A program made the position numbers and the translations under genes. From Elusimicrobia bacterium CG_4_9_14_3_um_filter_62_55 (lineage in GTDB: Bacteria; Elusimicrobiota; Elusimicrobia; UBA1565), in NCBI GenBank assembly GCA_002790095.1, contig PFUL01000197.1, positions 1-53,920 on the forward strand: 53,920 nt of DNA, in the 5' to 3' direction. Shown here piece by piece: positions 34,471 to 51,175 of this stretch. Numbering within the stretch: the stretch's first letter is position 1; each line of letters opens with the position of its first letter. The notes under the pieces were generated by a model. That model saw only the letters and a list, made by a program, of their open reading frames with translations, made no database searches and was not told the origin of the DNA.

Positions 34471-34496
34471 CCACTTTGCGCTACCCTATCGCATCG

Positions 34497-34988
34497 ATGA
34501 CCATACCTCCCGGCCTCCCGAAACCGCCCGCGCCGCGCACGGCGTTCGTCACCAGCCTCGGATGGACCGGCCTGATCGGCGGCGCGCTCAGCGCTCTGAC
34601 GGGCGTCATGGAATGGTTCGCCGCCCGCCCGTTCGCCGAGCAGGGGTTCATCGACATCGTCCTCAAACTCAAGCAGTACGCCGTTCTCTCCTGGGTCGGC
34701 GCGATTCCGACTCTGATTTTTTCCTGGGGCGTACTGCACCGGCGGGAATGGGGGCGCAAGGGGATGCTGGTTCTGATCGCCGTCGCGGTCTTGGCGCATT
34801 TGGCGCTGCTCCCGACGCTGCGTCAGGCCTTCGCCGGCGCGGGAGAACTCGCGCCGGGATCGCTTCTGGAAGCCGTCCTTAATACCGCGAAGTGGACGAC
34901 CTACGGCGCGCTGGCGGTCGCGACCGCGGTCATGCTCTGGCTCGGCCGCAAGCTCGCGACCTCCCCGGTTAAGGACGAATTCTGCTGA
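34497..34988 (+). CDS. Four-helix membrane protein of unknown function
   Basis: 163 residues from the ATG at 34497 (a TTG at 34476 is in frame but lacks support). There are four hydrophobic segments, about 20-40, 60-78, 85-107 and 130-150, including VTSLGWTGLIGGALSALTGV, LSWVGAIPTLIFSWGVLH and GMLVLIAVAVLAHLALLP. I do not recognise the family. Its last codons (PVKDEFC) and stop lie inside a repeat that reads, on the other strand, as the C-terminus of AroQ. The natural 3' end may therefore have been shaped by recombination. Confidence 0.75.
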   Translation: MTIPPGLPKPPAPRTAFVTSLGWTGLIGGALSALTGVMEWFAARPFAEQGFIDIVLKLKQYAVLSWVGAIPTLIFSWGVLHRREWGRKGMLVLIAVAVLAHLALLPTLRQAFAGAGELAPGSLLEAVLNTAKWTTYGALAVATAVMLWLGRKLATSPVKDEFC

Positions 34989-34993
34989 GCAGC
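34942..34993. repeat. aroQ-3'-end repeat, copy 1
   Basis: 52 bp that recur at 36214-36265 with only two mismatches. The last 28 bp (34966-34993) are identical to 50723-50750, the true 3' end of aroQ. The core contains GGACGAATTCTGCTGAGCAG. On the minus strand it reads LLSRIRP-stop. Confidence 0.95.
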
Positions 34994-35295
34994 GCCATGT
35001 TCCCGTAGTTTTGCCTGATCAACGGCGTCTTGTTTCGCGCTTTGTGCGCGATGCTCGAACGAACCGGCAACTGTCCCCGGGGACAGTTGCTCTCGATTGA
35101 AATTTCCGTCGCGGCATGCACGCGCGTGATGCGCGGGAGCGCGGCGCCCGGAGCCTGCGGGCGGGAAGTCCTTTACGCCGAAGACGACTCTCGTATTTCC
35201 CCTCGGCGCGCCTGCGCGCCGAGGCCGGACGCCCCCCGCGGGGGCGTCCGCGCCGTTGGGGGCATTCAGCCCTTGAAACTACGGGAACATGGAGT
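34994..35295. mobile_element. MITE-like element with 17-bp terminal inverted repeats and nested palindromes
   Basis: CCATGTTCCCGTAGTTT (34995-35011) and AAACTACGGGAACATGG (35276-35292) are perfect inverted repeats. The 10-bp sequence GCTGAGCAGC flanks the unit on both sides (34984-34993 and 35296-35305), like a target duplication. Inside are several hairpins. A perfect 24-bp palindrome lies at 35069-35092 (half-site GCAACTGTCCCC). CCTCGGCGCG pairs with CGCGCCGAGG at about 35201-35224, and GGACGCCCCC pairs with GGGGGCGTCC at about 35227-35249. There is no plausible gene inside. It would have to be mobilised in trans. The region 34989-35361 otherwise holds only the next gene's promoter. Confidence 0.75.
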
Positions 35296-35329
35296 GCTGA
35301 GCAGCCTGGCTAAAAATCAAGGAAGTGGG

Positions 35330-35361
35330 TATAAAGGGAGTCCAATGTTCTCGGAGGAACT
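35330..35361 (+). promoter_or_regulatory. Promoter and ribosome binding site of the cysteine-rich protein gene
   Basis: TATAAA (35330-35335) is a good -10; the -35 (TGGCTA at 35307-35312, 17 bp spacing) is weak. GGAGGA lies 6 nt before the ATG at 35362. The promoter begins just outside the inverted-repeat element. Confidence 0.5.
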
Positions 35362-36201
35362 ATGCGGCTGCCCCATCATGTCATGGCGTTCATCGCGGCG
35401 GCTTTGATTCCCGCTTCGGCGGCTTCGGCGGGATCGAGGCAAACCGAATGCTTCAGCGGATTCCATCAGTGCATGCGCGAGAATAAAGGACAGATGAAGA
35501 TGTGTATGGAGCGCCGCGACGCCTGCATGAAGGGGGAGAAGCCCTCCGGCGAGGCCGGGAAGCCGAAGAAAGTTCCGTCGCCGTTTTTGAACATCGAATG
35601 CAGTAAGAAATATTCGAAGTGCATGGGACAAAGGAAGGCGAATAAGAAACTATGCGACGATGCCCACTCGCGCTGCCGGCGCGGGGAGGAGGAAGAAGCG
35701 CCGTCAGCCGCAAAGGGGAGAGATGGGAAGACGGACACTCCCGCGGCGAAGAAGAACCCAAAAAAATCCGTCGAGACAAGGCCGGCCGACAAGCCGCGCG
35801 GGGTCCGGATCGGGGGGACAAGCACGAAAGGCATCGACGGCCCTTGCTGGACGATGAACGTTTCGAAGAAGACTTGCGCCGAGTGGAAGTCCGAAAAGTG
35901 CAAAACGATGGGCAACGCCTTCCGCACGAACGACGACTGCGCGGCCTGCCTTAACGACTACCGCCTTCCCATGGGGAAAGTTGCGCAGCCCGTTTTTCAG
36001 TATGTTCAGATGATGAAGCTCTGCAAAGAGGAGCGGCGCGACCTGGACAAACTCGAGGAGTGCATCAAAACGATTAAGGACGCCGACGAGCGGGCGGCCA
36101 GCCGGAAATACCTCGAGGCCCAACGGGCCATCGACGGCATCGTCGCCGACGCCAAGGCCAGCGGCATTCACGGCTGCGGCAATTTTTCGAGGGTTCGCTG
36201 A
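35362..36201 (+). CDS. Secreted cysteine-rich protein with an exact CX6CX10CX6C internal repeat
   Basis: 279 residues with a signal peptide (about 1-23). Two copies of the same cysteine spacing occur 50 residues apart: C30, C37, C48, C55 and C80, C87, C98, C105 (for example ECFSGFHQC and ECSKKYSKC). The spacing suggests two disulfide-stapled helical hairpins. A Lys/Glu/Ala-rich linker (about 107-150) follows. The C-terminal domain has eight more cysteines (GPCWTMNVSKKTCAEWK, CKTMG, DDCAACLNDYR, MKLC, LEECI, HGCG). I do not recognise the family. Disulfides imply an extracytoplasmic location. The gene stands alone between two aroQ-end repeats. Confidence 0.8.
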   Translation: MRLPHHVMAFIAAALIPASAASAGSRQTECFSGFHQCMRENKGQMKMCMERRDACMKGEKPSGEAGKPKKVPSPFLNIECSKKYSKCMGQRKANKKLCDDAHSRCRRGEEEEAPSAAKGRDGKTDTPAAKKNPKKSVETRPADKPRGVRIGGTSTKGIDGPCWTMNVSKKTCAEWKSEKCKTMGNAFRTNDDCAACLNDYRLPMGKVAQPVFQYVQMMKLCKEERRDLDKLEECIKTIKDADERAASRKYLEAQRAIDGIVADAKASGIHGCGNFSRVR

Positions 36202-36213
36202 CCGGCCCGCGTG

Positions 36214-36265
36214 TCGGCCGCAAGCTCGCGACCTCCCCGATCAAGGACGAATTCTGCTGAGCAGC
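36214..36265. repeat. aroQ-3'-end repeat, copy 2 (hybrid junction)
   Basis: 50 of 52 bp match copy 1 at 34942-34993. Its right flank continues as an AroQ-like C-terminal coding sequence on the minus strand, whereas its left half resembles the 3' end of the membrane-protein gene at 34497-34988. Confidence 0.93.
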
Positions 36266-36282
36266 CGCCGCATCGCTTCGCC
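36241..36282 (-). pseudogene. Remnant of an aroQ 3' end
   Basis: The minus strand reads GEAMRRLLSRIRP-stop; the intact AroQ ends GEALRRLLSRIRP. The nucleotide differences are mostly silent (GAA/GAG, CGG/CGC), apart from Met/Leu and the stop (TGA/TAA). That is the pattern expected of a displaced homologous aroQ tail and not of chance. It lies 3 bp before the stop of the downstream beta-barrel gene. Confidence 0.8.
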
Positions 36283-36285
36283 GCC

Positions 36286-38199
36286 TTAGAAGCTGAAGGT
36301 GGTTCGAACGTTCACGCCGTAGGTGGCGGTGTCGCTGGCTGGGGTGATCCTGTCGTTGGAGGCGGTCATGAAGCCGCCCAGCGTCAGGCCGAGTGATTTC
36401 GCGACCTTCAGGGTTGCCTGCAAGTTCAAGTTCGTGTCCTGCCGATCGGCCGGCGCGGCCCCGTCGTCATCTTCGGTGTCGGTGAAGGATACGGACCCCT
36501 GAAGGGAGAAGCGCCCCGAATACAGGTCCGCGCTGAAGGAACCCGACAGCGTGTTCGAATGCAGTTTTGAGCCGTCCTTCTCGTCGCGGGTGATATTCGT
36601 CGTTTCACCGAGCGTGGCCGATAAGCGCTCGTTGAATTTCCAATTTCCCGAGATGTTGAAGGTGTTGGTCAGAAGGTTGTTGGCGGCGCTTGTGCGGTCG
36701 GTAAACTTGGATCGCTGGTAAGAGAAGTTGACGCTGCCCCCTTCCCAGGCCTGATTCAGTCCGACAGAGGTCCCGTCCGTCCTGTTGTCCTGGGTGCTGA
36801 GCGGCTCGCCATAGGCTCGATTCAGGGTGTAGCCCAATGTCAGACGCGTCCGCGTCGGGAAACTGGTCTCGGCGTTGGACCCCAGCGCGCGCTGGCGGCT
36901 CGTGGTTTTCGCCGGGTCGCTTGCCAGGTTGTCCCGGGACTGGCTTAAGCTGTTGTTTAGAGTGATCCAGTCCCACGGCCTCAGCATCAGGCCGCCTTCA
37001 TGCGTGTAGCGGTCCTTTGAGACCCCGGGAGCCGCCAAGTTCACAAATTGGGCGCCGTTGCGGGACACCGTGCCCGTCACCGACCAGCGCGGCTGCGTGA
37101 AGCCGGTCGCTATGCGCCAGGCGTTATCGGTCACCGCCGCGGCGGTGGAGGTCTTGTTTGCCTCGAACGCGCTGTACTGCCAGTCGCCCTCGACTTTCAG
37201 GTTCTCGCTCGCCGCCCACGCGATCCCGCCGCCTGCCGCCCGACTGCGCGCCGGCAGAAGGCTGGGGCCGGGTGCGGCGAGGGAGCCCGGGGAGTCTTCC
37301 ACCTGCGCGTAATTGCCGCGCAGTATTAGATTGCCGGGCAGGTTAAACGAGCTCTGCGTGCCGTACATCAGCCGCTCGAACACCCCGTCAGTGGCCGCAG
37401 CGACCTGAGCGGCCACCGCATCGATCACCCACTTCGCGGACCCCAGCTTGATCTCGCGGGATTTTATCAGGGCGCCGCGCACGCCGGAGCCCGAGACGGA
37501 CAACGGCGAGAAGTTCGGGGAAACGTCGCCCAAACCGATGTCCGCATAGGGCGCATGGTAGTTGAACAGAAAAGTGCGGAAATCATAATTTTTTTTCTGG
37601 TCGTGGATCGTGTTGGCGTTGAGTTCGAAAGGAGCCTTGTTCACGGTGCCCGACAGATTGACGCTCGTGTCGGCCTGCCAGTCGTTGGGCCCCGTGTCGT
37701 TGCGGTAGCCGACCACAACGTTGCCGCCCACCGTGATGGGAAACGGCGAGGGGCGCGCGGCACCCTCAGGCACGGATATCTGCGGAGTCACCGGGAAGGA
37801 CTTGTCCTGGCTCTGAACGATGCGCTGCTCGTTATGAACGATGAACACGCGAAAGGTGTAGTCCCCGGAGTACTGGATGGGCACATCGAACTTCAGGTCC
37901 ATCGGGAGGCTCCCCCCGGGAGTTACGGCCGCGGTCGGCTTGAAGCGTTTTGTGGACGCGAGATACTTCCCCTTCTTGTCGTAGACCTGAGCGATGAGAT
38001 AGGTCTTGTTGACCTCCCACGTCTCGTTGCCCTGGTTGACCGCCAACACGCGGAAGAACACCGTCCCGCCCGCGTTGACGGGCAGAGGCTCGGCGTTGGT
38101 GAACATAAATTGTCCCGTGTCCGCGGCCCACGCGGGCACGGAGAGGGATAACAAGAGCGCTAGGAGCGCCCCACTAGAAGACGACGAACCGCGCTTCAC
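36286..38199 (-). CDS. Outer-membrane beta-barrel protein of the surface operon
   Basis: 637 residues with a GTG start overlapping the giant gene by 26 bp. It has a signal peptide (ALLALLLSLSVPAWAA). Residues about 28-135 form an Ig-like domain (TVFFRVLAVNQGNETWEVNK, YSGDYTFRVFIVHNEQRI). From about 150 the protein is a chain of alternating, aromatic-ended beta strands (GNVVVGYRND, LFNYHAPYADIGLGDVSP, NLILRGNYAQVED, SVNFSYQRSKFTD), ending in VRTTFSF with a terminal Phe as in outer-membrane barrels. It could anchor, secrete or display the giant protein encoded just upstream. No named family was recognised. Confidence 0.82.
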   Translation of the reverse strand: MKRGSSSSSGALLALLLSLSVPAWAADTGQFMFTNAEPLPVNAGGTVFFRVLAVNQGNETWEVNKTYLIAQVYDKKGKYLASTKRFKPTAAVTPGGSLPMDLKFDVPIQYSGDYTFRVFIVHNEQRIVQSQDKSFPVTPQISVPEGAARPSPFPITVGGNVVVGYRNDTGPNDWQADTSVNLSGTVNKAPFELNANTIHDQKKNYDFRTFLFNYHAPYADIGLGDVSPNFSPLSVSGSGVRGALIKSREIKLGSAKWVIDAVAAQVAAATDGVFERLMYGTQSSFNLPGNLILRGNYAQVEDSPGSLAAPGPSLLPARSRAAGGGIAWAASENLKVEGDWQYSAFEANKTSTAAAVTDNAWRIATGFTQPRWSVTGTVSRNGAQFVNLAAPGVSKDRYTHEGGLMLRPWDWITLNNSLSQSRDNLASDPAKTTSRQRALGSNAETSFPTRTRLTLGYTLNRAYGEPLSTQDNRTDGTSVGLNQAWEGGSVNFSYQRSKFTDRTSAANNLLTNTFNISGNWKFNERLSATLGETTNITRDEKDGSKLHSNTLSGSFSADLYSGRFSLQGSVSFTDTEDDDGAAPADRQDTNLNLQATLKVAKSLGLTLGGFMTASNDRITPASDTATYGVNVRTTFSF

Positions 38200-41100
38200 A
38201 GGCGGTATCCTCCTTCCCGGAGATCCACATACGCATCGTATACTTGCCCGGGGGCGTCCCTGCGTTAAGGCCGAAGGTCACCTTGCTCGGCCCGACGCCG
38301 TCGGCATCAGTGCCTTCGCTGTTGCTCTGCGAGGCAATCCACGCCACCTCCCCCTGGAGCGAATCGTCATCCTCCGCATCCTTGACCTTCGAGGCCAGAT
38401 TGGTGATTTTATCGACGTCCTCATCGTACTCCAGGCCGATCACATTGGAGACGTCCTTGCCGAGCGCGGTCTGGGCGGCGCCTCCTGCCGTCTTCTTGAG
38501 GACATCGCCGACGTTATCGCCTTTCACGGCGCTCTTGACGCCGGCGGAAAGGGCGCCGAGAGCGATCATGTACTTATCGTTGGTCCCGATGCCCGGCGAG
38601 TCGAGGCCGATCGCCTTGGAAGCCGTCTCGCCCAGGGCCGTCGCGGCGGCACCCTTCGCGGCGCCCGCGAAGACATCCCCGACATTCCCCCCGTTCGCCG
38701 CCGCGGTAAGCCCCCCGGAAAAGGCCCCAAACGCCAGATCGAACTTGCTGGTCGACCCCGCCGAGAAGCCGCCCAAATCCGAATATTTGGACTTAATGGT
38801 CCTTTCCGCGGACTGGACCGTGAAACCGGGCGCACTCAACTGGTACGGGTTCGGCTCGCTGGCAATCATGCTGGCCTGCAAACTCGAGCCCTCCGGCAGC
38901 CCCTTACAGCTCATCTTGAAGGTGCCCCCGGGCCGAGGTGCGAGCGGGGTCAACGTAGCGGAGTACTTCGTCTTCGGCTCTTTCACCGACGGCGGAGCCG
39001 TCACCGTGAGCATGAGGGTCGACAGATTGTTCTTGGGCGCGCGGTCCGGACGATCAAGGATGCCCGCTTTCACTTCGTACTTGCCGGCCGTATGCGCCGG
39101 GATGCGGAACATCCGAGAGACTTTGCCGTTCTCTGGGATCGACGGGATGGTCACGTCAGGATCGATGGTGTGGCCGTCCATCCGCAGGCCCACTTTGACG
39201 TTCTTCTCGTCGAAATTGCTCTGGCTATGGATCGGCAGCTTGGCCTCGTAGTAGTTGCCCCTGCGGGTGAGGACCAGCGCGCCGGCGTAGAGCTCGCGGT
39301 AGGGGAGTTCCACGTTGACCGCTCCCGAGTTGTTCTTGGGATCATCGTCATCGTACTCGATCAGCGTCGCGCCCACGCCCCCTCGCCATATGACATCCGG
39401 TTTGACCGGGACGTAGAACCTCCCCACGAAGGATCCGTTCGCTTGGCGTTGGGCCGAGGCACGCCACTCTTTGTTGGGGTCGGTGGTATTGATCCTCAGC
39501 TTCATCTCTTTGAGCGGGTAGTTCCCGCTGATGCGGTCGATCTGGACGGTGAACGGGACCTGCCCCCCCGAGATCTCGCCGGGGTGCATCACCGGAGTGC
39601 CGACCTTATAGTCGTAGCCGAGCTTGAACCTCGCGGACATCTTGTTGTTGCCGTGGTCGTCGTCGTTGTAGTTCATGTGCGCGACCGCGATGTGAGCCTT
39701 GCCATCGACGGGGCGCTTGATCAGGAAGTCCGCCACCGTGGACTCCTTGGCAGCCAGGGAAGCGATTGTCTTCTCCACCTTCTGGTCGATCTTCCCTTCC
39801 AGATAGACGCTCAGGGGGATGTCCTTCTCGGTACGGTCGCCGATATTGGCCACTGTGACCTTGACCGAAGACTTCCCATCCGTGAGCCCCCCGAGCTCCA
39901 GCTTCGTGATCTTCGCATCGAAGACGGGCCGTGCAGGCAGGTCTCTGAAAGAAGACGTCAGGCTGTCGTCATTGGGGTTCGCGTCCTCGAAATCCACGAT
40001 CATCGCGGTAAAGGTCCGCGCCGTTTTGGTCTTTTGGATAGGCACATCGATCATGGCGCTGCCGCTGCCGTCCGCGCCCAGGGTCACCTGGATGTCCGGG
40101 CCGAGGTTCTTACCGTTCTCCCGGACCCGTACCGGGATCTTGCCCTGAAGCTCCGGGCCCCATTCCTTGGCCAACTCGACCTTGACGGGGACCTTGTTCC
40201 TCTCCCCTTTGGCCCACACTGCGGCCAGCTCGGCGGCCGTAGGAGCCGCAATCCTGGCGACCTTGTAGTTCCGCTTGGCGGCGAGCGCGCGGTTCTCCGC
40301 GGTCGGCGGCGGGAGGGCCGTATTGTACGGCTTCGCGGGGACGTTCACGGACTTCTCGAAGACGACTTTATTGTCCCGCCACAACTTCAGTGTGAAATCC
40401 CAGGGCCCGGTGGACATGATGGCGCCCGCATGCGGGTACATGTGGGCCTTCAGGGGATATCCCTCCACTTCGGCCGAATCTCTCCCCCCCGGCTCCTGGT
40501 ATTCTCCGAATCTCGCCACACCGGGTCCTTCAAACGACATCCTGTAGCCCCTTTTTGTGAAGCCCTGGGCGAACTCGGGGAACGCGAAGAAGCAGTTGTT
40601 GCCCGGCGAGGGGTCATGGACCCGGGCGGCGCCGATGGTGACCGGCGGACTCGGGATACTGCGGGTCTTGGTCATGACGTTGTCGCCTGGGGTTGCGTCG
40701 CTGTCCATGTTCAGCCCCCCCTTGAAGTCCCCAGGCCCCACCTTGGCCGTGAGCTGCACGTTCTCCCCCCAGCCTGCCTCGACCGTGAAATCGGCAGAGG
40801 CCGCCCCGTTGAAGGTCGGTTTCATCTCCAGCTTGCCGTTGCCGGCCTTCAGAGCGATGAAGTAAATGTTGTCCTTATAGAAGACGCTGCGATTGGACAC
40901 ATGGACGGTCACCGGGATGCTCACGCGCCTGTTCGGGAGGATGATCATGTCCCCGATCTCAATATTGGCCACTCCAAGGTCTTTGGCTTCGAAAATCGTC
41001 GAAAGGGCCGCCTGGTCATCGGCGCTCTTGTCGTCCTTTTGCCCCTCCAGGACGGCAATCAGATTATAGGCTCCCCTCGCGCCCTTATAATTGTTCGGGA

Positions 41101-44100
41101 TATCGAAGGAGACCTCGCGGGACTCACCCGGCTGTAATTTTTCGTCGAGCTTCTTCTTGCCGTACTCCTTGTCCGGCTCCTCACCCGAGGGGGCCATCCA
41201 CCCCCCTTCGGCGGGTTTGCGGGTGAGGGAGACGGTGGGCGCGTCTTCGGTCACGACACCCGTGTTCTTGACGGTCACACTCACTTCGAAGCCCAGAAAA
41301 GACGGGCTCCTGAAAGCGTCATTCTTCACCGCCACCTTGGTGACAGCCAGGTTCCATTCCGGCCGATCAGGCAGCGTCAACGAGAATCCCTTTTTGTTGT
41401 CTTCGGGGTTGAGCTCTCCTTCCAAGGAGCCTAATACCTGCGCCGTCCCCTTGACCGGACCGCCGACAGCGGGCAACGGCACATTCACCATGAGTTTCTG
41501 CGACTTTCCGGGCTTGATTTCCGGCTTATCAGACGGGTCCGAGACATATTCCGCCTCGCCCAGCGTCAGGCTGACGTGGACATCCTTGACCAGCGTCTTC
41601 CCGTTGTTCTGCACCTCGACGATGACGGGGGCCGTGCGCTTCTTAGTGTCGATCCCTTTCCCCAGGGTCACCTCGCCGATGGACAGATCCCAGGGAAGGC
41701 GGGGCACCGTGACGTACTTCTTGTTGTTGCTCGGATCGGCATCTTCGGTATCCTGCGAGGGCCCTACCCAGACAGAGACCTTCTGGGACGTCTCTTTCAG
41801 CGGGAAGTTGATCGTCACCGTCTTCTGAGCGTCCTTCTTGAGCTTCGGATACTCTTTGGCCTTAACGTGGTTCGGGCTCACGCCCAACAGAGGCGCCAGC
41901 GACTCGCCATCGCCCAGATTCTTGATCACCACATCGATCGGGACCGTCTGCGTCTTGGGGTCGAAGTCATCCGGCCGCACCGTCGCGCTGAGGATGGCCA
42001 GGTCGAGGCGCGGCGGCTTGGGCGGGAACTGGAGCACCAAGACCTTCAAGTCGTTCTTATTGTTCTGGTCCTTGACCTCGGCCTTGATCGCTCCGAGTAT
42101 CACGGCCCTGTTGTCCTTGTCTGGCTGGACCTGGACGGTCCAATAGGTTTCCTGCTCCGGGCGGAGGGTCCTGGGAGTGGTGTACTTGTGCGTGTGCAGT
42201 CTGCCTTCCACCATAATGATTGGAGGCTCGACCGATTCCTCTATGCCGCCGAGATTCTTGACTGTGATGTTCACCGGCCACTTCTGCTCGACCTGACTGA
42301 AGTACGCCTTCTTGTTGCTGGTCTCGGGTGCCGTGATCTCGGTTACCGCTAGATCGCGCTTGGGCATATCGATCTCGGCGGTGTTATTGTTCGGCGTGAG
42401 ATCCTTGCTGTCGGGATTGCCCGCCTCTTCGCCGATATCCACGATCGCCTTGAGCTTCTTGCCTTTGGTCCAAGGCAGATGGAAGGTGAGGGAGCGCGCG
42501 CTGTAGCTGCCCGCTTCGATGGTGGGCAGCTTCACGGTCCGCAGTTCATATCCATCCACTTCGAACCGGATCGACGCACGCTCTTCCTTCACCGTGCCGG
42601 CCGCCTCGATCTTCACGCGGATCTGCATCGGACCGTCTTCCAAGTCGCCGACATCCGTACTGCCTTCTCCGACAGCCATGTCGGTGATCTTCAGATCATG
42701 CTTTTCCGGCATGATTTTCCGGAAAAAAGCGGACTTCAGCCCAGGCACCTTCGCGGTCTTTTCGGAAGTCGTGACCTCTTTGCCGTCTGTATCGACGACC
42801 GCCATGTGGAACAAGACGGTCTGGTCATCGGTCTTGGGGAGGTCGAACTTCACGGTCCCCTTCCAAGGCTGGTCGGTCTTGGAATCGATCCAATCGCTGT
42901 ACTGAGGATTCTCGAGGCCCTTCAGGGCAGCGGGGTCGCCCTTCCCCTTCACCATGAACCGGTATCGGCCCTTCATGGGCTTGGGGCCGCCATAGTACGT
43001 CATGCACTCTATCGGGAAATCATTCCCGCCGCCCAGCGCCTTATTGAGGGCCGCAAACTTTTTCTTGATTGATTCGTTGCTGAATATGCCCCAGCCTTCA
43101 TCTTCCTTTCCCCGCGACTTGAAACTCAGGCTGTCATACTCGGTCAGATCCGGGACCCCGGTGATGGCCGCGAACCAGGAGGCTGGAAGCTTGACGGTCT
43201 TCTCCTCCGATTTCAGATTCGTCAAAACCGGGTCCTCGGGATCGACCGAGAGCTGCCCGTAGAACTTGACCTCAGCGGGAGCCTCCAGAAAAGGCAAATG
43301 GAACACGACGGACTTGTCCGCGCCATTCCTTTCCAGATCCGTGATATCCTGGCTCTCGATCTTATCCCCGGACCAGTCGCTGGTCGGCACCAGGGTCACC
43401 GTGATCTTCGGCTCCTTTTTCGGTCCATCATTGACCACTTTGACGGTGATCGGGACGCCGCCTAAAGACGCCTCTCCGATGATGATCTCCTTAATAGAAA
43501 GGTCGCGCGGCGGCGGCGGGGCGGGGTCGCCGATCAGCTTCAGCGTGACGGTGTCGTTGTCGGGATTGGCGTCCTTTTCCGTCTGTCCCTTGTCGTCCTC
43601 CAGGACGACCGTCGCCGTCAGGACGTCTCCGTTGGCGATCGGATCCCGCTCGAGCTTGGCGAAGATCGTCCGACCGGTCTCCGAGGCCGCTTCCTGCGCG
43701 GCTATGGGAGCATCCGTGACTTTCGACTCGCTCGTCAGGGGGTCTCCATCGGTCGAGAGGGAATACTTCACCGAGTAGCGCGGCGCCTGCACCCCGCCCC
43801 CGTTCCTGACGGCGACGTCGGCTTTTAAGGTGATCGTCTTGTCCGCCGCTCTCTCGACCTTCGGATTCTTGAGTTCGACCAGTAGGTCGGGCGCGTTCCG
43901 CGCCGCGAGCGGCCCGCCGAGCGTCTTGGTGAAGGTATCGTTGCTGGGGTCGGCGTCCTTGACCGGCTTGCCGTTGCCGTCGAGCAGAGTGATGGTTGCG
44001 CTCAGCGTGGACATTTCCCTGATCGGGTCCCGGTCCAGCGCCGCGAAGAGGGTCTGGGACCGCAGCCCGCTCGAACCTTTGGCCTCCAGGGGCCTGTCGG

Positions 44101-47080
44101 TGATAATGCGACTGACTTCGACAGGATCTTTCCCCGCCGTGATCGCGTATTTCAGCGCGTACCGCCCGGCCGTCGCGTCGCCGTCGTTGAGCAGAGTGAC
44201 GTCGGCGCTCAGGTCGAACTTGCTCCCCGAAGGTTTGACGCTGAAGTTCTTCAGCGCGACCCGCAGGTCCGGACCGGGCGTCACCTGGGCCTTCGATTTC
44301 CTGGTGGGAATCTCCACCAGGATGGTTTCAGATTTTGTTGACGCAGATCCCAATACAAGATGGGCGATAAAGGGAAGCGTGACCCGGTCCAGGTCCTTTT
44401 CAAGATCGGTGATCCGTGAGGTCGAAGGCATCGAAAAATCTAAAGACGATTCCTCCCCGGCCTTCAGGCATGTGATTTTCGGTGGATTCGCGCCCCAATT
44501 TTGAACCAGCTCCCGGGCGAATGGGTCGATGAGTCCGGGATTGGAGTTCAGTTCCGTGAGCATTACAGCGTTGATATCTACGAAGGCGATACTCACGTCC
44601 GCAACGGGCGTCGAGCCGGAGTTCTTCACGGGGAGTGATAGAACTTTTCCCCTCAGGGTGGGCTTCGACATGCTGAATTTCGCGGGGTCGGGAGTCGCTG
44701 TCGCATCCGAACATGCCTGGGACCCGGCTGCCGGGGCCGGGGGGGAGATGACGCGGGTGATGCCCCGGGCTACGGGGTTCTGAGCGGCACCCTTCACGTG
44801 GGGCTGTAGATAGGCGCGCCACTGCCGCGGGATCCCGTCGTTCTTAGGCGTCGGAAGCCCTTTGAAGGCGATCTTCCAGGCCTTCTTGCCTCCCGAAAGA
44901 TTGAGCGGCTCGCTGAACCGGGGCTTGAAGGTCTTGTCCAGAACGGCCCTCTTGGTCTTCGCGTTGTACCACCAAAGCAAGAGCTGCACCTTGTAGACGC
45001 CTTCGGCGTTGCCGCTCTTCAGGCTCACATCGGCCGTGACATCTTGGCTCTGTGCGCCGGCGGCGGCGGCCGAGGCGGTCATGCTCCAGGTCGGGGCTGC
45101 GGCCTTGGCCGGCACTTGTTCCGGTTTCGCCGCGGTCCGGCTGGCAGCGACCGCAGGGTGCAGGGTGACGCGCTTGAAATTATTTTCGCTGCTGGCCTCG
45201 GACCCTGAACTCTCGACTGAAACCACCGCCTCGACGTTTCCCGTGCCCAGCTTCGCCCTGGGCACCTGGAACATCCCGGTGAAGGAATCTTTTTCCGCTT
45301 CGACACCCAACGACGCGACGGGTAGATCGGCAGCCAGTTCCTCCTCGTCCGCAAGCCGCTTTATTCGGACCGTCGCGCCGGTCGCCTTGCGCCCAATGTT
45401 GCGAACGATGACCTTCACGGGCACGTAGTCCGCTCCTGCGACGGCGTCCGCCTGACCCGCGTACGCGACGGCCAGGTCCAAGCCGGAAACCGCCGCGGTC
45501 GACGGCTTCCGCCGTCTCGGGATGTCGAGGGATACCGTCTTGATGCCGGAGTGGTCCTTATCCTCGGCGACATCCCAGGAAGCGACGTAGTCAGCATTAC
45601 GAATATCGGACGGCTCCCGAAATGGGATATTGAGGGTGACGTCCGTCGTCTCTCCGGAGCCGATCGAGTCGACGGTCTCTGAAGGGCTCCCCGCCGGATT
45701 ACCGGCCACCGGCTTGAGCGAGACGCGAATCGGTCCCGCGCCGTAACCCAGGTTGTTGGCGAGGGTTATCTTCACCGGCGCATACGCCCCGACCGCATTC
45801 GGGTTCTCGACCCATTCCCGTTGGACGGGCTGCCGAGCCACCGTCGTGATCCCCAGGCTGCCCGCCGCCTGCGATATCGGTTGAGTCGAACTATTCTCGC
45901 ATCGATTTCCGGAGAATCCGCTCGTACAAGCGCATCTCAAGACGGTCCCCGCCTGTGTGCAGAGGCCGCCGTTTCGGCATGGATTCGAAGCACAGAGGTC
46001 GACCGTCTCATCCGGGATCTTAAGCTCGACGGTCTTCGTGTTGTCGGTTGGGGAATCGTCGTAATAGGCCAGCGAGGCGGTCACCATGTACGGCTTGTGA
46101 AGGCCCACCCCGGAAAGATCGAGCCACGACCTAAACGCCAGGGTCGTTTTTCCCGAGGGAGAGAGGTTCGCGACGTTCGCCGTGAAACCGGAAAAACCGA
46201 GCGCGTTGAGAGGGGTGCCATTAATGCTCGCCGTGACTTGGAACGGCCCCTCCGACTGGCCTCCCTGATTGGCGACCTCCACCTTCGCCGTGATCTGATA
46301 TTGAGAACCGTCCTTTCTGAAGGAAGCATCGACCTTATTTACGGCCACGTTTCGCGAATCCGGCAAGGAGTCGGCCTTGATCTTGAATGACCGGTAGGTG
46401 TCGGGACGCGCGATGACGTTCCCGGAGCCATCGAGTCCTTCAACCGTCCAGTAGTAAAGGGTTCCGCCGGACAAACGATTCTGCACCAGCGTATTCGCGT
46501 CCTGGCGGATGTCGACCAGGGACTGGGTCACCACCTGGTTGATCTTGATCCTGGAGAACGCGGTGTCCTCGGCCACCTTGAGCCGGTAACTCGTAGCGGC
46601 GGGGTCCCAGCGGAATCGCAGAGGAGAGCCGGACACCTCCGCCATGTCCGCCGGTTCCTGGAGGATGATCTTCGGGTCCCGGACCTGCACGCTGGCCGTG
46701 CCGCTGACCGTCGTCCCGCCATTGGACGCGGTGCCGGTGAGGATGTAGGTTCCCGACTTTGTAAAGAAGCGGCTGACCAGAAGCCCGCTCAAGGTGGCGC
46801 TCGTAGTCCCAGCAGTGCCGGCCGGGGCCGTGTTGCCGGACTGTTGGAACACGGTGGCTCCGTCCGGATCCTGGATCGCGAAGGAAAACGCGATATTCCC
46901 GACCCCGGCCCCGTCGCTGGTGACTTGCATCGACAGCGTGACGCGGTCCGTCGCGAGCAGTAGAGAAGCGTCCGTGCCGTTGGACTGCGTCATCCGCGCC
47001 TGCGGACCGGAGATGCCGGCCCAGGCGACGGCCGGGGAGAGGAGGAAGGCGAGGCCGAAGGCCGGGAGGAATCGCCTCAT
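38174..47080 (-). CDS. Giant secreted CARDB-repeat protein with an EGF-like domain
   Basis: 2,968 residues (roughly 320 kDa) from the ATG at 47080 (ATGA overlap with the upstream gene). The signal peptide is MRRFLPAFGLAFLLSPAVAW. An Ig-like domain (about 25-120) and an Fn3-like domain (about 125-225) are followed by an EGF-like domain near 358-396 with six cysteines (DLCASNPCRNGGLC, then CACTSGFSGNRC). About 15 or more CARDB-type beta-sandwich repeats follow. They typically open with DLAV/DLSI, contain VxVxNxG, and end in acidic DxDPxNN-like turns (DADPSNDT, DANPDNDT, YDDDDPKNNS). The C-terminus has two Gly/Ala-rich homologous segments and ends CEARFVVF. It is likely a filamentous surface adhesin. 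Confidence 0.88.
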   Translation of the reverse strand: MRRFLPAFGLAFLLSPAVAWAGISGPQARMTQSNGTDASLLLATDRVTLSMQVTSDGAGVGNIAFSFAIQDPDGATVFQQSGNTAPAGTAGTTSATLSGLLVSRFFTKSGTYILTGTASNGGTTVSGTASVQVRDPKIILQEPADMAEVSGSPLRFRWDPAATSYRLKVAEDTAFSRIKINQVVTQSLVDIRQDANTLVQNRLSGGTLYYWTVEGLDGSGNVIARPDTYRSFKIKADSLPDSRNVAVNKVDASFRKDGSQYQITAKVEVANQGGQSEGPFQVTASINGTPLNALGFSGFTANVANLSPSGKTTLAFRSWLDLSGVGLHKPYMVTASLAYYDDSPTDNTKTVELKIPDETVDLCASNPCRNGGLCTQAGTVLRCACTSGFSGNRCENSSTQPISQAAGSLGITTVARQPVQREWVENPNAVGAYAPVKITLANNLGYGAGPIRVSLKPVAGNPAGSPSETVDSIGSGETTDVTLNIPFREPSDIRNADYVASWDVAEDKDHSGIKTVSLDIPRRRKPSTAAVSGLDLAVAYAGQADAVAGADYVPVKVIVRNIGRKATGATVRIKRLADEEELAADLPVASLGVEAEKDSFTGMFQVPRAKLGTGNVEAVVSVESSGSEASSENNFKRVTLHPAVAASRTAAKPEQVPAKAAAPTWSMTASAAAAGAQSQDVTADVSLKSGNAEGVYKVQLLLWWYNAKTKRAVLDKTFKPRFSEPLNLSGGKKAWKIAFKGLPTPKNDGIPRQWRAYLQPHVKGAAQNPVARGITRVISPPAPAAGSQACSDATATPDPAKFSMSKPTLRGKVLSLPVKNSGSTPVADVSIAFVDINAVMLTELNSNPGLIDPFARELVQNWGANPPKITCLKAGEESSLDFSMPSTSRITDLEKDLDRVTLPFIAHLVLGSASTKSETILVEIPTRKSKAQVTPGPDLRVALKNFSVKPSGSKFDLSADVTLLNDGDATAGRYALKYAITAGKDPVEVSRIITDRPLEAKGSSGLRSQTLFAALDRDPIREMSTLSATITLLDGNGKPVKDADPSNDTFTKTLGGPLAARNAPDLLVELKNPKVERAADKTITLKADVAVRNGGGVQAPRYSVKYSLSTDGDPLTSESKVTDAPIAAQEAASETGRTIFAKLERDPIANGDVLTATVVLEDDKGQTEKDANPDNDTVTLKLIGDPAPPPPRDLSIKEIIIGEASLGGVPITVKVVNDGPKKEPKITVTLVPTSDWSGDKIESQDITDLERNGADKSVVFHLPFLEAPAEVKFYGQLSVDPEDPVLTNLKSEEKTVKLPASWFAAITGVPDLTEYDSLSFKSRGKEDEGWGIFSNESIKKKFAALNKALGGGNDFPIECMTYYGGPKPMKGRYRFMVKGKGDPAALKGLENPQYSDWIDSKTDQPWKGTVKFDLPKTDDQTVLFHMAVVDTDGKEVTTSEKTAKVPGLKSAFFRKIMPEKHDLKITDMAVGEGSTDVGDLEDGPMQIRVKIEAAGTVKEERASIRFEVDGYELRTVKLPTIEAGSYSARSLTFHLPWTKGKKLKAIVDIGEEAGNPDSKDLTPNNNTAEIDMPKRDLAVTEITAPETSNKKAYFSQVEQKWPVNITVKNLGGIEESVEPPIIMVEGRLHTHKYTTPRTLRPEQETYWTVQVQPDKDNRAVILGAIKAEVKDQNNKNDLKVLVLQFPPKPPRLDLAILSATVRPDDFDPKTQTVPIDVVIKNLGDGESLAPLLGVSPNHVKAKEYPKLKKDAQKTVTINFPLKETSQKVSVWVGPSQDTEDADPSNNKKYVTVPRLPWDLSIGEVTLGKGIDTKKRTAPVIVEVQNNGKTLVKDVHVSLTLGEAEYVSDPSDKPEIKPGKSQKLMVNVPLPAVGGPVKGTAQVLGSLEGELNPEDNKKGFSLTLPDRPEWNLAVTKVAVKNDAFRSPSFLGFEVSVTVKNTGVVTEDAPTVSLTRKPAEGGWMAPSGEEPDKEYGKKKLDEKLQPGESREVSFDIPNNYKGARGAYNLIAVLEGQKDDKSADDQAALSTIFEAKDLGVANIEIGDMIILPNRRVSIPVTVHVSNRSVFYKDNIYFIALKAGNGKLEMKPTFNGAASADFTVEAGWGENVQLTAKVGPGDFKGGLNMDSDATPGDNVMTKTRSIPSPPVTIGAARVHDPSPGNNCFFAFPEFAQGFTKRGYRMSFEGPGVARFGEYQEPGGRDSAEVEGYPLKAHMYPHAGAIMSTGPWDFTLKLWRDNKVVFEKSVNVPAKPYNTALPPPTAENRALAAKRNYKVARIAAPTAAELAAVWAKGERNKVPVKVELAKEWGPELQGKIPVRVRENGKNLGPDIQVTLGADGSGSAMIDVPIQKTKTARTFTAMIVDFEDANPNDDSLTSSFRDLPARPVFDAKITKLELGGLTDGKSSVKVTVANIGDRTEKDIPLSVYLEGKIDQKVEKTIASLAAKESTVADFLIKRPVDGKAHIAVAHMNYNDDDHGNNKMSARFKLGYDYKVGTPVMHPGEISGGQVPFTVQIDRISGNYPLKEMKLRINTTDPNKEWRASAQRQANGSFVGRFYVPVKPDVIWRGGVGATLIEYDDDDPKNNSGAVNVELPYRELYAGALVLTRRGNYYEAKLPIHSQSNFDEKNVKVGLRMDGHTIDPDVTIPSIPENGKVSRMFRIPAHTAGKYEVKAGILDRPDRAPKNNLSTLMLTVTAPPSVKEPKTKYSATLTPLAPRPGGTFKMSCKGLPEGSSLQASMIASEPNPYQLSAPGFTVQSAERTIKSKYSDLGGFSAGSTSKFDLAFGAFSGGLTAAANGGNVGDVFAGAAKGAAATALGETASKAIGLDSPGIGTNDKYMIALGALSAGVKSAVKGDNVGDVLKKTAGGAAQTALGKDVSNVIGLEYDEDVDKITNLASKVKDAEDDDSLQGEVAWIASQSNSEGTDADGVGPSKVTFGLNAGTPPGKYTMRMWISGKEDTACEARFVVF
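38425..38745 (-). repeat. Duplicated Gly/Ala-rich segment near the C-terminus of the giant protein
   Basis: Two homologous segments of about 45 residues, one beginning FDLAFGAFSGGLTAAANGGN and the other YMIALGALSAGVKSAVKGDN. Both continue NVGDV(F/L), then a Gly/Ala-rich run, TALG, (K/N)-(A/V)IGL. The composition suggests amphipathic helices or a membrane-interacting region unlike the beta-rich remainder. Confidence 0.75.
45895..46005 (-). other. EGF-like domain within the giant protein
   Basis: Six cysteines have EGF spacing: C-x4-C-x5-C then, after nine residues, C-x-C-x8-C (LCASNPCRNGGLCTQAG, then RCACTSGFSGNRCEN). It is inserted between CARDB-like repeats 1 and 2. EGF domains are widespread in animals and sporadic in bacteria. 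Confidence 0.85.
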
Positions 47081-49587
47081 CGAACCACCGCCAACTTCTT
47101 CGTCGCGTCGGCCTGAGTGCCCGTGGCCTGGCCGACCACCTTGACCCGGACCAGATAAATTCCCGGGGCCACCGCCCGCCCGCGGTTGTCGGTCAGGTCC
47201 CAGCCCCAAGATACCTCGGCGCCCGAGCGACTCGCCTCGGCGCCGGAAAACTCACGCACGAGTGAACCTGTGATATCGAAGATGAACACTCGGGCATCGA
47301 TCGCCGACACCTTGGACTCGAACCGGATCGTTGTCCGGTTCCTGGCCGGGTTCGGGTAAAAGTAGAACGCCTTAGGGTCGAATAGCTTTGCGTTGGCACC
47401 CGCGGCCGAGGCGTCATTGAAGGCCACCGCGGCCGACTCGCCTTCCGCCAACCGCACCGTTATTGTCTCGCCGAATTCGACGCCGTTAAACGGCCGGAGT
47501 TGGTAGGTTCCCGGAAGGAGCTTCGGCACGGTGAAGCCTCCCTGCGAGTCCGTCGCCACCCTCGCGGCCAGTTGGCCCCTGTAAATCTCAACGAAGGCCC
47601 CGGAGGGCACGGCTGCGGCCGAGGCCGCGGCGCGGGACCCCGCCGGCGAGGACCCCTGCAAAGACAGCGTGCCGGTGATGCTCCCCAGAGTCACACTGAG
47701 CCCCAGTCCCATGGCGATGCCGGTGGTGCCCACCTGATGCCCCGACTGGGAAACGATAGACGTCGCGTCGCCGTCGCTCAGCTTCCACGAAGCTTGGATC
47801 GTATAGTTGATCCCGGTGTCGGTGGACAGTCCCGTGAAGCTCCAATTTCCGCCCGCGTCCGAGAACACCGTCGCAACCGTGCCCCCTGAGGCCGACAGGG
47901 TGATCTGCACCAGATTGACCTCTTGGTTCGGGTTGACCGTCACCGTCCCGCTGATCGCGTCGGTCGGCGCGGCGCCAGCCGCGGTGACGGTAGAGGTAGG
48001 GGTGGTGAAGTTGGTGTCGGTGCCGCCGTGGCCGGTTGCTTTCACCCGGGCATAATAAGTCGCGGCGCTGGTCAAAGAGAAAAAAGTCGCCGATGTGAGC
48101 AGCGTCGCACTCGAAGTCAGGGTGCCGCTGAAGTCGCTGGCGGTCGAGATTTGGGCGGTGTAGGAAGTACCCGACGGGTTGCCGTTGGCCGCCCAGGTGA
48201 AGGTGATCTGAGTGGAGCTATTGGCCACCACCGCGGGAGTGACCGGGACGGCCGCCTCGGTCGCCGTGGTCACGCTGGTGTCGTACGCCGTAGCCGTTCC
48301 GCCGTGGCCGACGGCACGGACCCGCAGGTAATAGGTGGTGTTGGGGGTCAGACCCGCAAACTGCGCGCTGGCAGCCAAGGTCATGCTCGACGCCGCGAGA
48401 GACCCGAAGTTCGAGGCGGCCGAAATCTCGGCTACGTACTCCGTCGTTGACGGATTCGAGTTCGCGTTCCAGCCCAGGGCGACGGTCGCCTCGCCCACCG
48501 ACGACACCGCCGTCCCGGTCGGCGGGTTGGCCAGGGTGGCCGAAGCGGCGAATTGGTTGTACGCCGTGGCGGTACTAGGGCCGAGAGCCTTGACCCCGAA
48601 GTAATAGGTGGTATTCGGAGAGAGGCCGGTAAGTGCCGCGTTTGTCTCGATCTCAGAGCTGGTGTTCGACGAAACGGCGACCCCCGAAGGAGGGTTGGCG
48701 GCATCGGTCGATGCGATCAGCGAATAGCCGGTCGATCCCAAGGTAAGCGCCCAGTTGGCCGTGGCGGAGCTCGCATGAAGCCCCGTCACGCCCGCGGTGC
48801 TGGGCGGCAAGACGTAGTGGGTGAACGTGGTCGAAGAGAAGCCGACCGTAAAGACCGACTGCACGTTGCCCGCCGTATCGAAGCCCTTGGTAACGATGTT
48901 ATAGGTGTGGCCGCTGACGAGCGTTGCGCCGAAGGACTGCGTGAAGAAGGGCCCTACGATGGTGGCGGTGCTCCAGAACTCGGCGGAACCAAAGCCCGCG
49001 CCCCCGTTCCAGTATTCGCCGGTGGAAAGGTCCTGGACGCGGACCTGAATAGTCGAGATGTTGAGGTCAACGTAGATTCCGCCGATCTCGGTGGTCGTTA
49101 GACGGCTCGATCCGTGCACGGGCGTTGCGACGCTTGTGTCTGGGGGAGTGGCGTCAATGGTGAAGATTTTGGTGGCGGGGGTGGAATCGGTATCGGCAGC
49201 GTCGTCCACCGCTCGAGCTTGGATGACGAAGTTCCCCTCCATTCCCGTGAGGGCGGCGGGACTGACCGAATCCGTCCAGGTCTCAGCGGCGGAATCGAAG
49301 GTTCCGTCCGCCGGTGTGGCGTTAAACCAGCCGTCTTCGGGATTGAAGTAGGACAATAAAAAGTCGAATTGAAAAACGCCGTCCCAGCACGAGTTGGTGA
49401 TCGTTTCACAGAGGCGGACCTGAACGTTGGAGACTGTGCCGTCGGCATCGGCCGCGGTCCCCGAGACGGTTACAAGGCTGGACATCACGTCGGCACTAGG
49501 CTGTTGAATGGCGGTATCGGGCTCCACGGCATGGACCGGCACCGCCAAGGCCAACCCCATCGCTAAAATCCCGATTCGCCGCTTCAT
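47077..49587 (-). CDS. Secreted Fn3-repeat protein with a FlgD/type-IX-like C-terminal domain
   Basis: 836 residues with a signal peptide (ILAMGLALAVPVHAVE). Bacterial Ig-like modules (about 25-270) are followed by at least three fibronectin type III repeats, recognisable by LSPNTTYYFGVKALG, LTPNTTYYLRVRAVG and LTSAATYYARVKATG. Then come carboxypeptidase-regulatory-like modules (SDAGGNWSFTGL, TDSQGGFTVPKLLPGTYQLR). The C-terminal about 90 residues read FYFYPNPARNRTTIRFE, VFIFDITGSLVREF, GRAVAPGIYLVRVKV and end KKLAVVR, the FlgD-Ig/type IX sorting-domain pattern. It is coupled by 4-bp overlaps to the PorV-like gene before it and the giant gene after it. Confidence 0.87.
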   Translation of the reverse strand: MKRRIGILAMGLALAVPVHAVEPDTAIQQPSADVMSSLVTVSGTAADADGTVSNVQVRLCETITNSCWDGVFQFDFLLSYFNPEDGWFNATPADGTFDSAAETWTDSVSPAALTGMEGNFVIQARAVDDAADTDSTPATKIFTIDATPPDTSVATPVHGSSRLTTTEIGGIYVDLNISTIQVRVQDLSTGEYWNGGAGFGSAEFWSTATIVGPFFTQSFGATLVSGHTYNIVTKGFDTAGNVQSVFTVGFSSTTFTHYVLPPSTAGVTGLHASSATANWALTLGSTGYSLIASTDAANPPSGVAVSSNTSSEIETNAALTGLSPNTTYYFGVKALGPSTATAYNQFAASATLANPPTGTAVSSVGEATVALGWNANSNPSTTEYVAEISAASNFGSLAASSMTLAASAQFAGLTPNTTYYLRVRAVGHGGTATAYDTSVTTATEAAVPVTPAVVANSSTQITFTWAANGNPSGTSYTAQISTASDFSGTLTSSATLLTSATFFSLTSAATYYARVKATGHGGTDTNFTTPTSTVTAAGAAPTDAISGTVTVNPNQEVNLVQITLSASGGTVATVFSDAGGNWSFTGLSTDTGINYTIQASWKLSDGDATSIVSQSGHQVGTTGIAMGLGLSVTLGSITGTLSLQGSSPAGSRAAASAAAVPSGAFVEIYRGQLAARVATDSQGGFTVPKLLPGTYQLRPFNGVEFGETITVRLAEGESAAVAFNDASAAGANAKLFDPKAFYFYPNPARNRTTIRFESKVSAIDARVFIFDITGSLVREFSGAEASRSGAEVSWGWDLTDNRGRAVAPGIYLVRVKVVGQATGTQADATKKLAVVR

Positions 49588-50570
49588 CTAAATCTCGCGG
49601 TGAACGAAATTTGATGGGCGTTGCCCAAACTGCCGAAGGGGGTGATGGCATAGTCGAGCCGATGCCCGAAAACACGCAGTCCGAAGCCCCCCACCAAACC
49701 GACCAAGCGTTCGACTCCCGAGCCCGAGCCCCCACCCAAACCGCTTCCCGTTAAAGCATCTCGAGACTCGGCGGAGCGAAAAAGGTATCCGCCGCGAAGG
49801 ACCAACATCCCTCCCGTGCCGTATTCTATCCCCGTCTTAAAGGAAGGACTTGATTCTCCTCTAAGCGATTCCAACTCCACCGACAGTCGCAGAAGCGCCG
49901 CCGGAGCGAAGTCGACGGAGACTCCCGTGCGCAGGATTCGAGGCAACGGGAAGGACCGGTCAAGAAATCTGACGCCCGGCCCCACATTGGCGAGCGCCGC
50001 GCCCGCTTGGATGCGGCCCCGGCGGTACATAAACCCCAGGTCGGCGGCGAAGGTGGAGGCCGTAAAGGTGTCGATATTCTGGCGGATAAACTTGCCCGTC
50101 ACACCCAGGCTCATCTTCCCGTTCAAGGGCTGGGCATAGGAAACCGCCGCGTAGAAATCGCTTGAGCCGAAGGTACGGTCGGGCTCGGGGGTGTTGCCCG
50201 TGCGCGCCTCGATCCCTCCCACCGAGAGGCGAGTGGCCGAGACGCCGAAGGCTTTGCGAGCCGAATCCCCGGCAGAGCCCAGCGGATGCACGTAGGCCAC
50301 GCGATCGACGGCGATGTCTTGAACATGGATCACATGCTCGGCCATCAGTTCGCGAGACAGCAGGCGGGACATCCCGGCGGGGTTCCAGTAAGTCGCGCTC
50401 GCATCGTCCGAGAGCGCGGTGAAAGCGTTCGCCATCGCGACGGAACGCGCTCCGGAACCTAAACGCAGGAACGCCAACGATGTGGTTCCCGCGGCGCGGC
50501 AAGGCTGAACCAGGGTGTAAAATAGAAAAATCGCCGCCACAAGTCGACGGCGCAAGGGATGTGACCCCAT
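49584..50570 (-). CDS. PorV/PorQ-like outer-membrane protein
   Basis: 328 residues with a signal peptide (LVAAIFLFYTLVQPCRA). The family signature is GSGARSVAMANAFTALSDDA followed by SATYWNPAGMSRL. A FadL-like barrel pattern follows (FGVSATRLSVGGIE, AVSYAQPLNGKMSLGVTGKF, LRGGYLFRS) and a terminal FTARFR strand. In Bacteroidota, PorV shuttles substrates of the type IX secretion system to the attachment complex; relatives occur in other phyla. As first gene of the surface operon, followed directly by a protein with a type-IX-like C-terminal domain, a similar role is plausible but unproven. Confidence 0.87.
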   Translation of the reverse strand: MGSHPLRRRLVAAIFLFYTLVQPCRAAGTTSLAFLRLGSGARSVAMANAFTALSDDASATYWNPAGMSRLLSRELMAEHVIHVQDIAVDRVAYVHPLGSAGDSARKAFGVSATRLSVGGIEARTGNTPEPDRTFGSSDFYAAVSYAQPLNGKMSLGVTGKFIRQNIDTFTASTFAADLGFMYRRGRIQAGAALANVGPGVRFLDRSFPLPRILRTGVSVDFAPAALLRLSVELESLRGESSPSFKTGIEYGTGGMLVLRGGYLFRSAESRDALTGSGLGGGSGSGVERLVGLVGGFGLRVFGHRLDYAITPFGSLGNAHQISFTARFR

Positions 50571-50579
50571 ACCGGACTA

Positions 50580-50608
50580 AATTTATCACGACCCCCAATT
50601 TTAATCAA
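50580..50608 (-). promoter_or_regulatory. Promoter of the four-gene surface operon
   Basis: On the minus strand TTGATT (50603-50608), 17 bp, TAAATT (50580-50585), then 9 nt to the ATG at 50570, giving a leader of about 2-3 nt. The intergenic DNA around it is AT-rich. Confidence 0.65.
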
Positions 50609-50722
50609 CTCAATTCATGATCACATCCATCGGTATACATGACTTGCGTCATATGCTCCGACGAATAGAAGCGAATCGGGCGGCGACCGGCGGCGTGATT
50701 CTGCGCCGCGTTTTGCCTTGAT

Positions 50723-50750
50723 CGGTTAAGGACGAATTCTGCTGAGCAGC
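50723..50750. repeat. aroQ-3'-end repeat, copy 3 (native aroQ end)
   Basis: 28 bp identical to 34966-34993, covering the AroQ C-terminal codons LLSRIRP, the stop and the first bases beyond it. It lies at the promoter-side edge of the surface operon; copy 2 lies at the other edge. Confidence 0.95.
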
Positions 50751-51175
50751 CGGCGCAGCGCCTCGCCGTAGCCGGCGGGCCCCTTCCCCATGACGCACCC
50801 GACGCAGACCGACCGGATCACCGATTTCCGCCGGAACGCCTCGCGTTTGCGGATGTCCGAGAGGTGCACCTCAAACGCGGGCAGCGCGACCGCCGCGATC
50901 GCGTCGCGCAGCGCGTAGGAATAATGCGTGTACGCGCCCGCGTTGATCAGCAGACCGTCGGCCCAGCGGCGCTGCGCGTGCAGTAAATCGATCAATTCCC
51001 CTTCCCCGTTGCGCTGAAACGCGCGAACACGCGCGCCGAGACGCGCCCCTTCGCGCTTAAGCCCCCGGTCGATCTCGACCAAGGTCGTCGTCCCGTAGAC
51101 GGAGGGATCCCGTTCTCCGAGCAGGTTCAAATTAGGCCCGTGCAGCACGAGGATGTTGAGCGTCTTCTTCTTCAT
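50726..51175 (-). CDS. aroQ: 3-dehydroquinate dehydratase, type II
   Basis: 149 residues, normal length for the dodecameric type II enzyme. ILVLHGPNLNLLGERDPSVY includes the catalytic loop Arg and Tyr. RAFQRNGEGELIDLLHAQ, LLINAGAYTHYSYALRDAI (Asn/His) and FEVHLSDIRKREAFRRKS (catalytic His) follow. It converts 3-dehydroquinate to 3-dehydroshikimate. The start overlaps the aroB stop (ATGA). It is the last gene of aroC-aroK-aroB-aroQ, and its 3' end is duplicated at 36.2 and 35.0 kb. Confidence 0.95.
   Translation of the reverse strand: MKKKTLNILVLHGPNLNLLGERDPSVYGTTTLVEIDRGLKREGARLGARVRAFQRNGEGELIDLLHAQRRWADGLLINAGAYTHYSYALRDAIAAVALPAFEVHLSDIRKREAFRRKSVIRSVCVGCVMGKGPAGYGEALRRLLSRIRP

Follow-up and report, generated by a model that had tools for sequence, protein, structure and literature searches.

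A duplicated membrane-protein gene/aroQ junction in an Elusimicrobia genome as the probable fossil of two nested insertions with long target duplication

Genomic islands that integrate through tyrosine recombinases occupy gene 3' ends (e.g. SGI1 in trmE), also as tandem arrays. A different kind of event, insertion with long target duplication, came to light for restriction-modification genes when two H. pylori genomes were compared (Nobusato et al, 2000, as presented in PMC1643837 and PMC3031569), and was also treated in Helicobacter pylori by Furuta et al (2010; PMC1643837, PMC3031569, PMC3874152); we refer below to this system as it is outlined in those articles. Homology-facilitated illegitimate recombination (PMC3240628, PMC5361080) could likewise give a one-sided join of foreign DNA in which the old gene ends are retained, but it needs a homologous anchor in the donor, and at the locus described here none is visible outside the duplicated stretch. 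The insertions at this locus resemble insertion with long target duplication, and we compare the features of the two at the end.

The window, meaning the whole 53,920-nucleotide stretch that was analyzed, is contig C66 of a 4.3-Mb draft genome in 202 contigs (G000). One sister genome, Elusimicrobia bacterium NORP122 (G001), which belongs to the same genus and is ~70% identical at the DNA level, served as the outgroup.

The duplicated junction and its empty site

The 70 bases at 36214-36283 (copy 2) repeat, in full and with slight divergence, the tail-to-tail junction between a small membrane-protein gene and aroQ. The two genes and the three copies of their junction are as follows.

34476-34988 (+): small membrane-protein gene, with its 3' end inside copy 1; 54% identical orthologue in NORP122; weak DUF7144 match below cut-off
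34942-34993 (+): copy 1, the membrane-gene 3' end plus the overlap; left arm of duplication A; 52 bp, 96% identical to 36214-36265
36214-36283: copy 2, the full membrane-gene/aroQ junction, now coding for neither gene
36238-36283: right part of copy 2, which is the left arm of duplication B; 46 bp, with 5 differences from 50723-50768
50723-50768 (-): copy 3, the aroQ 3' end plus the overlap; right arm of duplication B
50726-51175 (-): aroQ, an intact type II dehydroquinase (PF01220, E 3e-52); 73% orthologue in NORP122

When the window was compared with itself, the three pairings among copies 1-3 were the sole significant direct repeats. The left half of copy 2 differs from copy 1 at 2 positions (E 4e-17), the best BLAST piece between copies 2 and 3 is 41 bp at 93% (E 1e-9), and 34966-34993 in copy 1 is identical to 50723-50750 in copy 3 (28 bp, E 8e-7). 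With a 76-mer as the query, only 3 matches were obtained in the 4.3-Mb genome, and these are the same three copies. Their boundaries are nested, as copy 1 lacks the right half of the junction, copy 3 lacks the left half and copy 2 has both. The 20-bp overlap of the gene ends is intact in copy 2 (36241-36260), and both shared stretches (52 bp for copies 1 and 2, 46 bp for copies 2 and 3) cover it entirely. On the plus strand, copy 2 reads GRKLATSPIKDEFC-stop, compared to GRKLATSPVKDEFC-stop in the membrane gene, and on the minus strand it reads GEAMRRLLSRIRP-stop, compared to GEALRRLLSRIRP-stop in intact AroQ. The preliminary description had called copy 2 a hybrid, with a left half matching the membrane-gene 3' end and a right half reading as an aroQ end on the minus strand, and this was borne out. 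Its coordinates need small corrections, as the homology reaches 36283 and the left match covers 34942-34993 rather than stopping at 34966.

The same description had likened copy 2 to a pre-insertion junction and had suggested searching for a genome in which the membrane gene is directly convergent with aroQ. Such an adjacency was found in NORP122, where the membrane gene (12353-12844, +) and aroQ (12825-13265, -) lie tail to tail on contig C68 with a 20-bp overlap at 12825-12844 and nothing between them. The target junction occurs once in this genome, with the same overlap in ~70% identical DNA, and the 15.7 kb that separate the two genes in the window are missing. The nucleotide alignment runs from window position 34954 to sister position 12810 and resumes at window position 50726, which corresponds to 12825. 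Other than NORP122, only two distant partial matches to the membrane gene were found. Either the window lineage gained the 15.7 kb by insertion or the sister genome lost them by a clean deletion, and the duplications favour insertion.

Two further ideas about the junction copies were set aside. Copy 2 does not appear to act as a hairpin or terminator (folding z-scores near 0, terminator absent). To the left of copy 3, in the region 50710-50728, an inverted 10-mer, CCTTGATCGG, gives the variant core of copy 2, CCGATCAAGG, when reverse-complemented; a templated insertion is possible, but chance is likelier, considering that the 10-mer recurs elsewhere in the window.

The inserted blocks and the MITE

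Two blocks separate the three copies, and a MITE sits within the first interval.

34994-35294: MITE at the end of copy 1; its terminal inverted repeats are 17 bp long and perfect
34983-34993 (left) and 35295-35305 (right, +): 11-bp target duplication of the MITE, TGCTGAGCAGC
35306-36213 (+): insert A, ~0.9 kb without the MITE, between copy 1 (MITE removed) and copy 2; missing from NORP122
35362-36201 (+): insert A gene for a 279-aa Cys-rich protein with a probable signal peptide; no family match
36284-50722 (-): insert B, 14.4 kb, a four-gene operon transcribed in the aroQ direction; missing at this site in NORP122
36286-38199 (-): 637-aa outer-membrane beta-barrel-like protein; weak OMP_b-brl match below cut-off; stop codon 2 bp from copy 2
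38174-47083 (-): ~2,970-aa giant repeat protein; open frame, CARDB-like by inspection; N-terminal homologues beside related operons
47077-49587 (-): 836-aa FN3 protein with a T9SS type A sorting domain; fn3 and Por_Secre_tail over cut-off
49584-50570 (-): PorV/PorQ-family outer-membrane protein; PorV over cut-off; NF033709, E 2e-46

The Cys-rich protein of insert A had no match in Pfam, NCBIfam or PADLOC and no homologue among 294 genomes of the phylum. Operons related to insert B are found elsewhere in the same genome and in other Elusimicrobiota. The beta-barrel protein of insert B is 33% identical to a paralogue in its own genome and 41% identical to its best match in the phylum sample, making it a divergent extra copy of a protein that is conserved across Elusimicrobiota. 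Recombinase, transposase and integrase families of Pfam and NCBIfam were matched by none of the four insert A and B proteins that were scanned (the Cys-rich, beta-barrel-like, FN3 and PorV/PorQ-family proteins). A viral origin was considered and dropped, as viral contigs gave no matches.

The element at 34994-35294 is short and non-coding, has terminal inverted repeats and a target duplication, and is multicopy, as expected of a MITE. About 15 full or partial copies of the family are present in the genome (~300 bp for the element at the window site), and three copies are flanked by duplications of 11, 9 and about 7 bp. Given its own 11-bp target duplication and those of the other copies (9 and about 7 bp), it is a separate MITE, a later arrival at the end of copy 1. 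Its terminal inverted repeat is CCATGTTCCCGTAGTTT, there are GC-rich palindromes inside, and several partial copies are located at contig ends. A resemblance between the right end of insert B and the inner end of the MITE came down to a gapped 13-14-base match, judged by eye, and is probably due to chance.

Similar insertions elsewhere in the genome

Direct repeats were sampled across 1.56 Mb of the same genome, and in this sample three more loci were identified in which single-copy direct repeats of 40-47 bp, located at gene ends, flank inserts of 826-865 bp.

Contig C11 (stretch L132, 9355-10274): 40-bp duplication, 840-bp insert; AbiEii-like nucleotidyltransferase
Contig C72 (stretch L103, 11038-11984): 41-bp duplication, 865-bp insert; Gp49(HigB)-like toxin and HTH antitoxin
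Contig C159: 47-bp duplication, 826-bp insert; PIN toxin and probable AbrB-like antitoxin

Many other direct-repeat candidates were discarded as paralogous domains, tRNA or palindromic repeats. The repeats at the four loci (window, C11, C72 and C159) are unrelated in sequence. On C11, the 40-bp repeat spans the overlap between a small membrane-anchored gene and ApbE, and an empty site exists in NORP122, where these two genes are directly convergent, overlapping and insert-free. On C72, the duplicated stretch is the 3' end of the upstream gene, whose last codons have been replaced by insert sequence. The C159 case is less certain than the others, since the region is repeat-rich. Small toxin-antitoxin genes are interspersed there (stretch L115, 424-3060) with a 160-210-bp repeat that has inverted ends (GTCAGGCCGTCAC...GTGACGGCCTGAC), and this cluster resembles a MITE family or an array of cassettes.

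A 339-kb sample of NORP122 contained no equally clear case, and an indel survey against the sister sample revealed no other long duplications. Most other insertions relative to NORP122 are without a long flanking repeat, so insertion with long duplication is one route among several, and survival bias may account in part for its prominence at overlapping gene pairs.

Proposed history, alternatives and relation to known systems

We consider copy 2 to be the fossil of an overlapping convergent junction into which two blocks were inserted successively, each with a long target duplication (probability roughly 0.7); both the two steps and their order are inferred. In the ancestor, the 3' ends of the convergent membrane gene and aroQ would have overlapped by 20 bp, which is the state seen in the sister genome. 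Insertion of B would have duplicated 46 bp of this junction (positions 25-70, now 36238-36283 and 50723-50768), and insertion of A would have duplicated 52-53 bp (positions 1-52/53, now 34942-34993 and 36214-36265), with a half-copy, A, a full copy, B and a half-copy as the outcome. That duplication A is less diverged than duplication B (2/52 vs 5/46) weakly suggests that B came before A and that A is younger. As both duplications include the whole 20-bp overlap, both outer genes retain their own intact 3' ends, and convergent gene ends would be the sites where such insertions are best tolerated. The middle copy would have kept both halves while losing its coding role, then drifted to its present five substitutions, and the MITE would have landed at the end of copy 1 afterwards. 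For the duplicating step, a staggered break or a one-sided strand invasion with a short back-step, followed by synthesis fill-in, would be most likely. Ku (NHEJ) was looked for and not found.

One point against this history comes from the five changes in copy 2. All of them are conservative in both reading frames, and they look slightly more conservative than expected under neutral drift (simulated P ~0.009 with a BLOSUM criterion chosen post hoc, and 0.085 by amino-acid change count), which makes the import or replacement of copy 2 from a diverged lineage a minor possibility. The preliminary description had invoked an incoming module with its own diverged aroQ end. This is neither needed nor supported, as two insertions with target duplication already yield a full middle copy. 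Furthermore, copy 2 alone is expected to drift, being the sole copy that no longer codes for either gene, and since it is free to change, its five substitutions require no imported aroQ tail. In a broader version of the import idea, a pre-assembled block of A, copy 2 and B would have come from a related lineage in a single event with a 28-29-bp target duplication (copies 1 and 3), so that copy 2 would carry the donor's diverged aroQ and membrane-gene ends. The fact that copy 2 is the odd one out, while copies 1 and 3 are identical over 28 bp, fits this scenario as well, as do the five differences that are conservative in both frames. However, drift of the only non-coding copy produces the same pattern, and the donor could have acquired a full junction between its A and B only through the same two insertions, adding a step. 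A search for a second lineage with A or its junction found none, and we regard a single import as unlikely.

Two tandem genomic islands, inserted by a tyrosine recombinase at an att site in the overlapping 3' ends, would turn copies 1-3 into attL, a central att and attR. Islands of this kind typically carry gene-restoring direct repeats at gene 3' ends, a central repeat remains where islands stand in tandem, and the genome has ~20 tyrosine recombinase matches. The locus nonetheless departs from this model in that none of the four scanned proteins of inserts A and B matched a recombinase, the repeats extend on opposite sides for A and for B, and the duplications at the other loci share no common att; four repeats without shared sequence argue against a site-specific recombinase. 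We strongly doubt the island explanation for these reasons. As for the assembly, unrelated pieces might have been joined through short repeats in a draft of 202 contigs, but shared stretches of only 28-52 bp that contain mismatches would bridge an assembly poorly, neither flanking gene is broken, the MITE sits inside copy 1 with its own duplication, and an independent locus has the same arrangement, with its empty counterpart present in the sister genome. An artefact is thus very improbable.

Two successive insertions with long target duplication share several features with the Helicobacter system as the cited articles describe it. The insert is missing from a close relative (here at the window locus and C11), the direct repeat on either side of the insert is a duplicate of the target sequence, a known transposase or integrase is absent (here judged from the scanned insert proteins), and the cargo is often a selfish module of toxin-antitoxin type. 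The duplications in Helicobacter are on the order of 100 bp, and those found here (52(-53), 46, 40, 41 and 47 bp) are variable and long, but at the short end. The cargo is also different, consisting here of toxin-antitoxin pairs, an AbiEii-like gene, a Cys-rich secreted protein and a 14-kb surface operon; restriction-modification genes had no match among the scanned cargo proteins. Unlike the Helicobacter cases in these sources, the duplication spans overlapping convergent genes in two proven cases (window and C11), and two events are nested in one junction. A bolder reading is that a dedicated gene-insertion activity, independent of sequence and distinct from all known transposases, integrases and end-joining systems, operates in this Elusimicrobiota lineage, makes 40-53-bp duplications and has repeatedly added cassettes at convergent gene ends (~0.85 kb in size, apart from one of 14 kb); we consider this quite unlikely.

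That bacteria can gain genes by insertion with long duplication, and leave the old ones unbroken, is known but has rarely been described. Even where its convergent genes overlap, a dense genome can accept foreign blocks undamaged provided that the duplication covers the overlap, as seen twice at the window junction and once at another (C11), and the nested case keeps the empty site as a fossil within the insert. Through these loci, insertion with long target duplication reaches a lineage other than Helicobacter and cargo other than restriction-modification genes. They also offer a simple genome-wide screen for passive gene acquisition, based on direct repeats of 40-60 bp that are single-copy and lie at gene 3' ends.
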